From assembly GCF_002381345.1 (NCBI RefSeq), contig NZ_CP020660.1, positions 992,001 to 1,056,000 on the forward strand: a stretch of 64,000 bases of DNA, in the 5' to 3' direction. Source of the DNA: Candidatus Enterovibrio altilux. Lineage in GTDB: Bacteria > Pseudomonadota > Gammaproteobacteria > Enterobacterales > Vibrionaceae. The notes under the pieces were generated by a model. That model made no database searches. It saw nothing but the letters and a program-made list of their open reading frames with translations, and was not told the origin of the DNA. Shown piece by piece: positions 16,974 to 21,512 of the stretch. The translations under genes were made by a program, and so were the position numbers. Positions within the stretch are counted from its first letter, which is position 1. Every line of letters begins with the position of its first letter.

Positions 16974-17837
16974 TTAAAAAATGTCACCTACTGCTTCTTT
17001 CAACTTACGCATTGCATTTTTTTCCAACTGACGAATACGTTCAGCTGATACGTCATAATATTCCGCAAGCGCTTGTAAAGTCACTTTATTGTCATCTAGC
17101 CAACGAGAACGAATTATATACTGGCTTCGCTCGTCTAACCCTAATATCGCATTCGAAAGTCTATGGTTAGCATGATGTTCCCAGTTTGCAGACTCTAGAT
17201 TCATAGCGACATCTGACGCTTTATCTTCCAGATAGAAGACTGGTGCTACAGATCCTTCACGATCATCGTCATCATTGCCGACATCAAAGCCTGCATCTTG
17301 CGCTGCAAGACGACTTTCCATTTCCCGCACTTCTGCAGTACCTACACCAAGGTGTTCGGCAACCATTTTAACTTCTTCTGCATTAAACCAACCAAGACGC
17401 TTTTTTGCCTTACGCAGGTTGAAAAATAATTTACGCTGCGCCTTAGTGGTAGCAACTTTCACAATACGCCAGTTACGTAGAACATATTCATGAATTTCTG
17501 CTTTGACCCAATGCACGGCAAAAGACACTAAACGAACACCCACTTCTGGATTGAAACGTTTAACCGCCTTCATCAATCCAATATTACCTTCTTGTACTAA
17601 GTCAGCAACAGGTAAACCATAGCCAGCATAACCACGAGCAATATGAACAACAAATCTCAGATGAGAAAGAATGAGACTTTTCGCCGCATTCAGATCTCCA
17701 GCGTAATGAAGTCGTTCTGCAAACACACGTTCTTCATCAGGTGATAACATTGGATAACTATTTACCTGTTGTAGGTAGCTATCTAGGCTATCCTTTGAGA
17801 TCGGGACTATTGCATACGACTCAGTTATCATTCTCAT
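16974..17837 (-). CDS. rpoH: RNA polymerase sigma-32 factor RpoH
   Basis: Heat-shock sigma factor that directs RNA polymerase to chaperone and protease promoters. At 287 residues it matches the family. Region 2 ([20 protein letters not shown] ... [14 protein letters not shown]) is intact, the RpoH box QRKLFFNLR lies at residues 134-142, and the region 4 helix-turn-helix ends [16 protein letters not shown]. It lies downstream of ftsYEX as in E. coli and Vibrio. A clear target lies in this window: the groES promoter at 45699-45735. Confidence 0.97.
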
Positions 17838-17969: not shown

Positions 17970-18878
17970 TTATATGGGTTCAATCTCACGTAAATATTTG
18001 CTTACTGCCAATCGCGCGGCAAATAATCCTATAAAACCAGTGACCATCAATAAAATAAGACTTTCATCCATCCGCAAACCGTATAAGCAAAAACTACTAT
18101 TATACAATGTAGCTAATTTTGTCACCACCGTGTTTAAAAGCAGGCCATTGATTAGTGTCACCACCCAAGCAACCAATGCACCTGCAAGTGCCAACCATAC
18201 GCCAGTGTACAAATAAGGTCGAATTATGTAACTATCCGTTGCGCCAACTAGCTTTAAGACTTGAATTACCGCTTTTTGGTTCAACACCTGCAAACGCAGA
18301 GTATTACCAATGATCAAAAATACCCCTATTAACATTAAACTAGCAAATACCAAAGTTAAGGTTAACACCAAGGATTTAATCGCTACCATACGTTGCAACC
18401 AATCGCTATCGAAACGGACTTCCTCCACTAATGATTCAGCAAGAAGCTTAGCGGCAAGCACTCTAGTAAGAACTACATCATCATTAGTTGCAGTTACCAC
18501 AATGACCGAAGGCAACGGATTGCTGTCTAATAAACTGATGGCTTCATCTAACCCTTGAATTTGCTTCAGTTGAGTAAGACCTTCATCAGGAGAAATAAAT
18601 GCCGCACTGTCAATACCTTCCCATTGCGAGAGCTTATTATAGAACGAGTCAATGGCCGAATCAGAAGCATCTTGGTTCATATACACAGTGAGTTGGTTTT
18701 GAACTCGCCATGCTTCAGCCATCATCATGACATTTTTGACCAGCATAAATAATGTCGTTGGTAGCGCGAGTGAAAATGCAAGTGCCAACACCGTAAGCAT
18801 ATTACCCAAAGGCCTGTTGAGTAGATCGCGAAATGCTTGACCACCCTGCTGCTTGTGTAACGCAATGAAGTTAGTCAT
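17970..18878 (-). CDS. ftsX: Cell division protein FtsX
   Basis: Membrane subunit of the FtsEX complex, which couples division to peptidoglycan amidase activation. I place the start at the ATG at 18878, giving MTNFIALHKQQGGQAFRDL and 302 residues; it overlaps the ftsE stop by 8 bases. The product has four membrane segments: one near residue 35, then a periplasmic loop of about 120 residues, then three in the C-terminal half (around 180-205, 230-250, 275-295). It is slightly shorter at the N terminus than the E. coli protein (352), as is usual for Vibrio. Intact. Confidence 0.93.
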   Translation of the reverse strand: MTNFIALHKQQGGQAFRDLLNRPLGNMLTVLALAFSLALPTTLFMLVKNVMMMAEAWRVQNQLTVYMNQDASDSAIDSFYNKLSQWEGIDSAAFISPDEGLTQLKQIQGLDEAISLLDSNPLPSVIVVTATNDDVVLTRVLAAKLLAESLVEEVRFDSDWLQRMVAIKSLVLTLTLVFASLMLIGVFLIIGNTLRLQVLNQKAVIQVLKLVGATDSYIIRPYLYTGVWLALAGALVAWVVTLINGLLLNTVVTKLATLYNSSFCLYGLRMDESLILLMVTGFIGLFAARLAVSKYLREIEPI

Positions 18879-19539
18879 GTAGAGGCACCTCAAATAAATG
18901 TCCGCCATTCAAATCAAAACGACGCATGTCATAGCGATACAGCAAAGATGTATCGTTTGTGGCCATTAATACTGTTACCCCAGCCTGATTAAACTGACAG
19001 AATAACTCCATAATTTGTGCCGACAATGTGATATCACAGTTACCTGATGACTCATCTGAAAGCAGTACTTGTGGCTGGTTCACTACCGCACGAGCAATGC
19101 CAACTCTCTGCTGTTCACCGCCAGATAGTTGAGTCGGAAAGCATGCAATTTTATCGAGTATACCTACTCTATCTAGCGCTACCGATACACGCTTTTTTAC
19201 ATGAAATTCATCGGCTTGCTCTATGCGAAGTGGCAAAGCCACATTGTCAAACACACTGCGATCCGTCAAAAGTTGATAATCTTGAAAAATTATTCCAATG
19301 TGGCGGCGTAAAAAAGGTATTTCTTTACGATTCATTTTGGTGATATCGTGACCATTAAACAAAATTTGCCCATCATTTGGTCGTTCTATTGCACAGAGCA
19401 ACTTCAGCAAAGTACTTTTCCCAGCACCTGAATGACCAGTCAGAAACGCCATATCACCTTTTGGTAGATGAAAGTTTACTTTTTGTAATGCTTGCTGCCC
19501 ACCACTGTAAACTTTGCTTACCTGCTGAAATTGAATCAT
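18871..19539 (-). CDS. ftsE: Cell division ATP-binding protein FtsE, H-loop altered
   Basis: ABC-type ATPase partner of FtsX. The start is set to the ATG at 19539, since AGGAGG lies 10 bases ahead; a TTG three codons earlier is only one base from it. The product is 222 residues. Walker A GHSGAGKST is at 35-43 and the signature LSGGEQQR at 138-145. Two departures from the family stand out: the Walker B/D-loop reads DESSGNCD (162-169) where FtsE usually has DEPTGNLD, and the switch histidine of MATHD is Asn195 (MATND, codon AAC). The Walker B Glu is kept. ATP turnover may be impaired, although the gene is otherwise open. Confidence 0.93.
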   Translation of the reverse strand: MIQFQQVSKVYSGGQQALQKVNFHLPKGDMAFLTGHSGAGKSTLLKLLCAIERPNDGQILFNGHDITKMNRKEIPFLRRHIGIIFQDYQLLTDRSVFDNVALPLRIEQADEFHVKKRVSVALDRVGILDKIACFPTQLSGGEQQRVGIARAVVNQPQVLLSDESSGNCDITLSAQIMELFCQFNQAGVTVLMATNDTSLLYRYDMRRFDLNGGHLFEVPLHD

Positions 19540-19544
19540 GCTGG

Positions 19545-20624
19545 TCAATCCTCCTGACTGAATAGAGCTTCTATAAAGTCTGCAGCTACGAAGGGGCTTA
19601 AATCGTCAATCTCTTCTCCCACCCCAATGTAACGCAGTGGAATATTAAACTGCTTGGCCACCGCAAAAATTATCCCTCCTTTCGCTGTACCATCAAGCTT
19701 AGTTAAGGTAATACCAGACAAAGGTGCTATGTCATTAAACAAACGGGTTTGACTAATGGCATTCTGACCCGTGCCTGCGTCAATAATCAGCATAGTTTCA
19801 TGCGGTGCATTCGGATCGAGCTTCTTCATCACGCGAACAATTTTTCCCAATTCTTCCATTAAATTCACTTTATTTTGCAAACGACCAGCAGTATCTGCAA
19901 TCACGACATTAATCTTTCGTGCTTTTGCTGCCTCAATTGCATCATAGATAACAGAGGCACTGTCTGCTCCAGTATGTTGAGCAATAACAGGAATATTATT
20001 ACGATCGCCCCACACTTGGAGCTGCTCTACTGCAGCTGCACGGAAAGTATCACCTGCAGCCAACATCACGGATTTACCTTGTTGCTGGAATTGTTTTGCC
20101 AACTTACCGATGGTCGTAGTTTTACCTACACCATTAACGCCAACTATCAAAATAACAAATGGGTCATTACTACACTGCGCTTTTAATGGTTTTTCAACTG
20201 TACTTAAGATCTCTTTCATTTCCTGCTTAAGTAAACCGTATAAAATTGCACCATTTTTAAGATCATGATTCTTTGTTTTAACAATTAGGCTTCTGATTAT
20301 TTGAGTGGTGGTATCCATACCAACGTCTGCAATAAGCAGTTGTTCTTCCAGTTCTTGAAACAGAGTATCATCAATTTTTTTGCCACTACATAAACGAAAG
20401 AAACTCGTACCAATATTGAGCTTGGTTTTTTGAAGACCACTCTTCAAACGTACCAAAAAACTTTCTTTTTTTTGTTTTTTTTGTTCTATTTTTACTGCTT
20501 TAGTCGACACATCTTCAGTTTCTAAACGAGCATCTTTCTCTACTTGAAGCTGTTTTTCTTGGTCATTTTTCTTGCCACCGGAACACAGCCAGAACATAAA
20601 TTCACGTTTCTTTTTTTCTACCAT
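19545..20624 (-). CDS. ftsY: Signal recognition particle receptor FtsY
   Basis: GTPase receptor that docks SRP-ribosome complexes to the SecYEG translocon. The start is the ATG at 20624 with AGGA 7 bases upstream (MVEKKKREFMFWL); a TTG two codons earlier also opens the frame. It is 359 residues: a short charged A domain (about 60 residues), then the N and G domains with G1 GVNGVGKTTTIGKLA, DTAGR and TKLDGTAKGG. Its stop touches the ftsE upstream TTG (TTGA), and the operon order ftsY-ftsE-ftsX-rpoH is conserved. Confidence 0.96.
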   Translation of the reverse strand: MVEKKKREFMFWLCSGGKKNDQEKQLQVEKDARLETEDVSTKAVKIEQKKQKKESFLVRLKSGLQKTKLNIGTSFFRLCSGKKIDDTLFQELEEQLLIADVGMDTTTQIIRSLIVKTKNHDLKNGAILYGLLKQEMKEILSTVEKPLKAQCSNDPFVILIVGVNGVGKTTTIGKLAKQFQQQGKSVMLAAGDTFRAAAVEQLQVWGDRNNIPVIAQHTGADSASVIYDAIEAAKARKINVVIADTAGRLQNKVNLMEELGKIVRVMKKLDPNAPHETMLIIDAGTGQNAISQTRLFNDIAPLSGITLTKLDGTAKGGIIFAVAKQFNIPLRYIGVGEEIDDLSPFVAADFIEALFSQED

Positions 20625-20876
20625 TGACAAATCCTATAGTATAGTTGGTACAATCAACACAATCATAGTGAACTAATAAAAGACGATTCATACCACGTAT
20701 ATAAATGCAGGGCGATCATTAAGTATTAATGCATTTTTTAAAGCAGAGTGATATCAACGAAAGTAGCCGGTATCATTAATTATTAACCATTAAGTAGCTA
20801 ACTTATAAATTGCAGAGGAGACACTGATCGTTACCTAATCAACATATACTAACACCTTTTAACGGACCAAAATTTT

Positions 20877-21512
20877 ATGGTCATACGTAATCCTAAAAAT
20901 TTTGCAACACGGAACACGAGAACATGTAAAAATTCATCACTGTCAGTCGGTAATGGCTCCGGTTTTATTCGTATAATTAGTGGTAAATGGCGAGGTCGCA
21001 AACTGCCTGTAAAAAATATTGAAGGCCTACGACCCACAACTAATCGTATAAAGGAAACAGTGTTTAACTGGCTGGCAACCAATCTCTATCAAGCGAAGTG
21101 TTTGGATGTATTTGCCGGTAGTGGTGGCCTAGGTTTGGAAGCTTTGTCTCGCAATGCAGAGCATGTCACCCTCTTAGAACTAAACACAGAGGCTGCTGAA
21201 CAAATAAAATTAAATATCAACACGTTAAAAGCAGATAATGCCATGGTTTTGAATACTGATGCGCTGACTTATTTATCACAGCCAGGCCAAGCTTTTAATG
21301 TGACGTTTATTGATCCGCCATTTAGAAAAAAGCTACTCAACGATGCTATTTCACAATTAGAGCAGAACGGTTGGCTAAGTCAAAATGCATTAATTTATGT
21401 TGAAGCGGAAAAAGAACTTAGTAACATTAATGTACCAATGCATTGGGAGATGCTTCAAGAAAAATACGCCGGACAAGTAAATTTTCGATTATATCAAAGA
21501 AAAGAGAAATGA
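20877..21512 (+). CDS. rsmD: 16S rRNA m2G966 methyltransferase RsmD
   Basis: SAM-dependent methyltransferase for guanine 966 of 16S rRNA. The 211-residue product has a basic N terminus, then SGKWRGRKLPV, the SAM-binding FAGSGGLGLEALSR (about residue 80) and the catalytic DPPF motif, and ends with the typical GQVNFRLYQR. It is divergent from ftsY, as in E. coli and Vibrio; the 250-base spacer must hold both promoters, but I see no convincing boxes. Confidence 0.95.
   Translation: MVIRNPKNFATRNTRTCKNSSLSVGNGSGFIRIISGKWRGRKLPVKNIEGLRPTTNRIKETVFNWLATNLYQAKCLDVFAGSGGLGLEALSRNAEHVTLLELNTEAAEQIKLNINTLKADNAMVLNTDALTYLSQPGQAFNVTFIDPPFRKKLLNDAISQLEQNGWLSQNALIYVEAEKELSNINVPMHWEMLQEKYAGQVNFRLYQRKEK

Follow-up and report, generated by a model that had tools for sequence, protein, structure and literature searches.

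The window, a 64,000-nucleotide stretch of the genome of 'Ca. Enterovibrio luxaltus' CC26, the light-organ symbiont of the anglerfish Cryptopsaras couesii (PMC6020299), contains the gene block ftsY-ftsE-ftsX-rpoH (Table 1). The genome comprises 2,143,356 bases, with a largest contig of 1,604,691. FtsE scores 282.5 bits against the NCBIfam equivalog model TIGR02673, above the cut-off of 264.85, and FtsX scores 283.7 bits against TIGR00439, above the cut-off of 255. The ftsE frame is open, with no internal stop and no truncation. It starts 5 nt past the end of the ftsY frame, with AGGAGG upstream of the start, and its end overlaps ftsX, as expected from the initial annotation, which had described a full-length ftsE coupled to both neighbours and had placed it correctly; the strand is minus. 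The order of the four genes is kept in all 17 relatives whose regions were fetched, and the divergent neighbour beyond ftsY, which we take to be rsmD, has the same position in 16 of the 17. Elsewhere in the genome, an ABC ATPase-like stretch (G000:C2:111489-112043) contains four in-frame stops and is an apparent pseudogene, unlike ftsE.

Table 1. Genes and codons at the ftsE locus, in positions of the window.
Feature	Positions	Strand	Remark
ftsE	18871..19539	-	222 aa; open frame, curated model match
ftsX	17970..18878	-	302 aa; 8-nt overlap with ftsE; TIGR00439 match
ftsY	19545..20630	-	upstream member of the conserved block
rpoH	16974..17837	-	downstream member of the conserved block
rsmD (presumed)	20877..21512	+	divergent neighbour beyond ftsY
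ftsE codon 195	18955..18957	-	H-loop; AAC = Asn
ftsE codons 161-169	19033..19059	-	Walker B to D-loop; SDESSGNCD (usual: ADEPTGNLD)

The ATP site of this FtsE differs from the family consensus at five residues, A161S, P164S, T165S, L168C and H195N, which are encoded by TCA, TCA, TCA, TGT and AAC, respectively. In the five relatives displayed by codon, codon 195 is CAT or CAC, that is, His. Both the codons and the alignment of relatives bear out the MATND motif with Asn195 and the DESSGNCD segment that had been noticed at first sight. The accompanying description of an altered D-loop holds for L168C only: by the motif limits of E. coli FtsE (Walker B, V158-E163; D loop, G166-D169; H loop, L191-D197; PMC11491553), A161S belongs to Walker B, while P164S and T165S fall between the two motifs. 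The canonical feature of ABC nucleotide-binding domains that is absent is the switch histidine, and H195 is listed among the ATP-contacting residues of E. coli FtsE (PMC11491553). Walker A, Q86 of the Q-loop, the LSGGEQQ signature, D162, the catalytic glutamate E163 and D169 are unchanged.

The assembly is reported to have a coverage of only 14x (a second assembly, CC32, has 81x; PMC6020299), which raises the question of an assembly or base-calling error. However, the five residue changes require at least six base substitutions by codon count, and a base-calling error is therefore unlikely; the frame is also unbroken and the synonymous differences around the site are ordinary. We regard an error of this kind as extremely improbable. 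Gene conversion from another ABC gene was rejected as well, the DESSGNCD segment being absent from all ABC domains read in this genome. A genome-wide loss of ABC motif conservation was likewise rejected, since the switch histidine is kept in 20 of the 21 other ABC domains read (a 22nd stretch, the stop-ridden L335, is outside this count). The single exception resembles SapF, in which Gln is usual in place of the switch histidine.

We compared the altered positions with 182 other FtsE rows, 177 of them distinct. Every one of the 177 has His195, Ala161, Thr165 and Leu168, and 176 of them also have Pro164, which argues that the substitutions are not a matter of chance. At the 46 columns conserved at ≥97%, luxaltus FtsE differs at six (127, 161, 164, 165, 168 and 195), while the other rows show no departure (134 rows), one (33), two (9) or three (1). 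Outside the Walker B, D-loop and H-loop columns, one near-invariant position of 37 is changed (L127I). The ATP-site change is confirmed and is lineage-specific. For this comparison, 85 of the 132 other genomes matched were read (the 30 best and 55 from the weak end), and G042 was added from the 47 that ranked in between. From a further search, 54 of the 55 other genomes matched were read, G005 being left out with its ftsE in two frames; the loci L083-L117, divergent or not FtsE, are outside the 177-row count.

The initial annotation had proposed a comparison with close relatives and had named an Asn shared by free-living ones as evidence against its reading. This counter-evidence did not turn up: none of the 16 congeners read (of 17; the uncounted one is G005) has the Asn, and all 16 carry DEPTGNLD and ATHD. 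Among these 16 is the reduced sister symbiont (G012, 2.6 Mb), probably 'Ca. E. escacola'; in a tree of six taxa it groups with luxaltus at a support of 100, on branches that are long for both. In G005, ftsE occupies two overlapping frames (G005:C10:1324-1961, in L153) beside an intact ftsX, which in this draft reflects a frameshift or a sequencing error. We also observed an FtsE in the proteobacterial MAG SZAS-72 (L083:3827-4645) whose switch histidine is replaced by Tyr (TAT) and which adjoins an FtsX-like protein; loss of the histidine is therefore rare but not unique. Another genome of the family (G019, 4.4 Mb; L154:5161-5865) encodes an FtsE with Asp162 changed to Asn (AAT), plus Asn at 196. 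Its Walker B change is the same as the laboratory D162N ATPase mutation, with an error being possible in this single draft genome. In the plasmid collection, ordinary ftsE copies were found among the matches listed (n=10).

Five of the six departures fall among the nine near-invariant Walker B/D-loop and H-loop columns, giving a hypergeometric value of 5e-4 for motifs that were named by the finding itself. Scan statistics without a prior choice of motif gave 0.028 (five in any 11 columns) and 0.059 (four in any 7), and by these the clustering at the active site is only marginal.

To describe selection, a codon model with separate omega for the background, the sister branch and the luxaltus branch was applied to six genomes. 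The background omega of ftsE is 0.040, compared with 0.080 for the sister branch and 0.158 for the luxaltus branch; the improvement in fit (2 delta lnL = 14.5) refers to three omegas against one and not to the luxaltus branch by itself. Across 23 genes, the luxaltus omegas range from 0.042 to 0.242, with six of the 23 above ftsE. Of the columns that do not vary among the other five genomes, luxaltus has changed 18 of 160 in FtsE, 16 of 125 in FtsX and 20 of 147 in EnvC. By this measure, EnvC, FtsX and FtsE rank 1, 2 and 6 of 42 genes in luxaltus, with AmiB and NlpD at 13 and 14, whereas in the sister FtsE, FtsX and EnvC rank 28, 24 and 21 of 37 (Mann-Whitney 0.0036 in luxaltus and 0.82 in the sister, post hoc). 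The gene set consisted of genes near ftsE, envC, amiB and nlpD together with the dcw cluster; seven ORFs judged antisense and two G004 ORFs without a partner here were dropped, and the names in the 42-gene ranking are presumed or order-assigned except where tested by NCBIfam. The overall rate of FtsE is not extreme, five of the 42 genes having changed more. Constraint on the entire FtsE-FtsX-EnvC branch thus appears to have loosened in the luxaltus lineage, with purifying selection still acting. The dN/dS comparison that had been recommended at the outset agrees in part with relaxed constraint but does not demonstrate decay, omega being far below 1.

We then considered how FtsEX-EnvC fares elsewhere in the family. 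With luxaltus FtsE as query and a threshold of 1e-60, four of 197 same-family genomes (own included) gave no match: G263, G398, G399 and G018. In the draft G263, ftsE occupies two overlapping frames (G263:C67:9809-10464, in L352) next to an intact ftsX, which is attributable to a frameshift or sequencing error, and G018 has only weak FtsE matches. In G399 (1.0 Mb) and G398 (1.1 Mb), FtsE and FtsX were sought and not found, the best matches being in a cluster that is presumably of the LolCDE type. EnvC was also not found among the five M23 proteins of these two genomes: four have NlpD (two), ShyC and MepM as best NCBIfam matches, and the fifth (L365) has no blastp match to EnvC. G399 and G398 are probably P. 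katoptron and P. blepharus (Ca. Photodesmus), symbionts of flashlight fish, which suggests that the whole FtsEX-EnvC branch was lost in another light-organ symbiont lineage.

The luxaltus ftsE could likewise have become dispensable recently and be heading for the loss apparent in these ~1 Mb genomes. Relaxed selection and many pseudogenes are reported across the luxaltus genome (PMC6020299), and the faster change of FtsE, FtsX and EnvC in luxaltus, not in its sister, is consistent with such an early decay, as is the absence of matches in G398 and G399. On the other hand, the frame is open, the start signal and the partners are intact, and omega lies inside the range of the 23 genes. The single change at 37 near-invariant positions outside the motifs is not the scatter that free decay would produce. 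The transposon-free regions of the genome are moreover reported to include cell-division genes, in a passage that does not name ftsE (PMC6020299). We consider early decay possible, yet on the unlikely side. Given the open frame and the omega of 0.158, neither a pseudogene nor free decay was retained as the main explanation.

The known partners of FtsEX are encoded in the genome. Three M23 proteins and one Amidase_3 protein are present in open frames, and their best NCBIfam names are EnvC for one M23 protein (268.3 bits, below the cut-off of 270), NlpD for another (290.5 bits, below 311) and AmiB for the Amidase_3 protein (331.8 bits, below 532). The loss of a partner gene as the cause was rejected on these grounds. 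FtsA (L324:2057-3334) retains both G366 and R286, the latter being the residue of R286W, which we take to be a known FtsA bypass allele. The presence of a known bypass allele was accordingly rejected. Among the seven FtsA compared, D369N and P284L occur in luxaltus only and lie close to G366 and R286, possibly by chance. D369N, three residues from G366, is one of 15 such luxaltus changes scattered across FtsA, and we therefore treat it as a lead only, suggestive in that G366 changed to Asp has been reported to uncouple FtsEX from FtsA in E. coli (PMC7343993).

These data bear on whether the five changes could have been selected together, slowing or re-timing the FtsEX cycle, possibly alongside corresponding changes in FtsX, EnvC or FtsA. 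The location of the changes in neighbouring active-site motifs, the fast change of FtsX and EnvC and the position of FtsA D369N would all agree with such a retuning. Nevertheless, the scan statistics are marginal and the FtsA change is compatible with chance, and we find an adaptive origin very unlikely.

The distribution of the changes, which affect the Walker B flank, the D-loop and the H-loop and spare the nucleotide-binding motifs, could also mean that hydrolysis is lost and that the ATP-bound complex serves as a static scaffold for recruiting EnvC and supporting AmiB. ATPase-dead FtsEX is reported to support cell separation in E. coli as long as NlpD is available (PMC7343993), and the luxaltus genome encodes an NlpD-like protein. 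For V. cholerae, activation of AmiB is described as independent of nucleotide (PMC11139282). However, ATPase-dead FtsEX is also reported to block septal synthesis in E. coli through FtsA (PMC7343993), so that cells with functional FtsX and FtsA could fare worse with a dead FtsE than without any. In luxaltus, FtsA keeps G366 and R286, and FtsE retains the catalytic E163. A purely binding FtsEX is thus an unlikely explanation. The initial annotation had offered a binding-only mode or the start of decay; with omega far below 1, the other motifs intact and the partners encoded, we regard both as possible but less likely.

The consequences of losing the switch histidine vary among ABC proteins. Histidine mutants of HisP, MalK and HlyB are reported to lose ATPase activity, while Pdr5 H1068A does not (PMC9867378); NsrF H202A loses it (PMC7494861), and ABCC1 with the NBS2 histidine changed to Asn or Gln is described as still wild-type-like in transport (PMC7756269). 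The early statement that such a loss strongly reduces hydrolysis in most ABC ATPases therefore agrees with HisP, MalK, HlyB and NsrF and fails for Pdr5, and with the transport results for ABCC1 the picture is mixed. An FtsE without ATPase activity is inhibitory to E. coli division, and luxaltus ftsE is still under selection; we therefore think that hydrolysis is probably slowed rather than absent. The five changes combined could nonetheless abolish hydrolysis even where Asn alone would not.

E. coli without FtsEX is reported to form colonies at the usual NaCl, but with filamentation and chaining, and to be rescued by osmolytes on salt-free medium (PMC7648144). By extension, reduced FtsEX function may be tolerable in a marine symbiont. 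The large-genome congeners, presumably marine too, nevertheless keep the canonical site, so salt by itself is not enough to release ftsE from constraint.

From these comparisons of sequence, the reading we favour, with moderate confidence, is that the window gene is a genuine FtsE still in use and that its ATP-site change is tolerated drift under weakened selection on FtsEX-EnvC, with binding kept and hydrolysis probably slowed. In this genome-reduced, drift-prone lineage, selection on the FtsE-FtsX-EnvC division branch has probably weakened; the five residues that have changed lie close to the gamma-phosphate and the dimer interface. ATP binding and dimer closure should persist because Walker A, Q86, LSGGEQQ, D162, E163 and D169 are intact. 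Asn195 probably still forms a hydrogen bond to the gamma-phosphate, which would make hydrolysis slower, not absent. On this view, EnvC would continue to be recruited by FtsEX and positioned for AmiB, and the complex would reset more slowly, which may be tolerable for cells in a marine, osmotically supported setting.

A bolder possibility, which we hold as doubtful, is that a natural FtsE with impaired hydrolysis is an ATP-gated scaffold, and that this lineage divides while its FtsEX stays in the ATP state or leaves it slowly. This could be tolerated if the inhibitory FtsX-FtsA link, or its consequences, were softened. If true, such an FtsE would stand midway between canonical FtsEX and the state of the smallest light-organ symbiont genomes, which have apparently lost FtsEX-EnvC completely. 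More generally, the observations suggest that FtsEX-EnvC is a division module that light-organ symbionts loosen and then lose. Reports on P. aeruginosa, M. tuberculosis and V. cholerae differ as to whether FtsEX needs ATP hydrolysis or only binding (PMC11139282), and luxaltus FtsE, altered in its switch histidine and D-loop but otherwise intact, is a natural test case for this question. None of the papers searched in full text joins an anglerfish symbiont and FtsE, and ftsE, ftsX and FtsEX are absent from the main text of two anglerfish-symbiont papers.

The luxaltus protein is not a new kind of system but a known FtsE with an altered site. It is closest to the FtsE of its congeners (G012 included), which have the same gene order where fetched, a similar length and 75-82% identity over full-length matches, and which, unlike luxaltus, keep DEPTGNLD and ATHD in the 16 read. 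Like the E. coli FtsE mutants D162N and E163Q, it is changed in the hydrolysis part and keeps the binding motifs; unlike them, it has D162 and E163 intact and carries natural changes at 161, 164, 165, 168 and 195. The SZAS-72 FtsE also lacks the switch histidine, and its FtsX-like neighbour is 33% identical to luxaltus FtsX, but this FtsE is distant (45-48% identical), with Tyr rather than Asn and DEPTAHLD in the Walker B region. The NBS2 mutants of ABCC1 (MRP1) share the change of the H-loop histidine to Asn and transport much like the wild type; ABCC1, however, is a human exporter with asymmetric sites, and its mutants are described there without the D-loop changes of luxaltus FtsE (PMC7756269).
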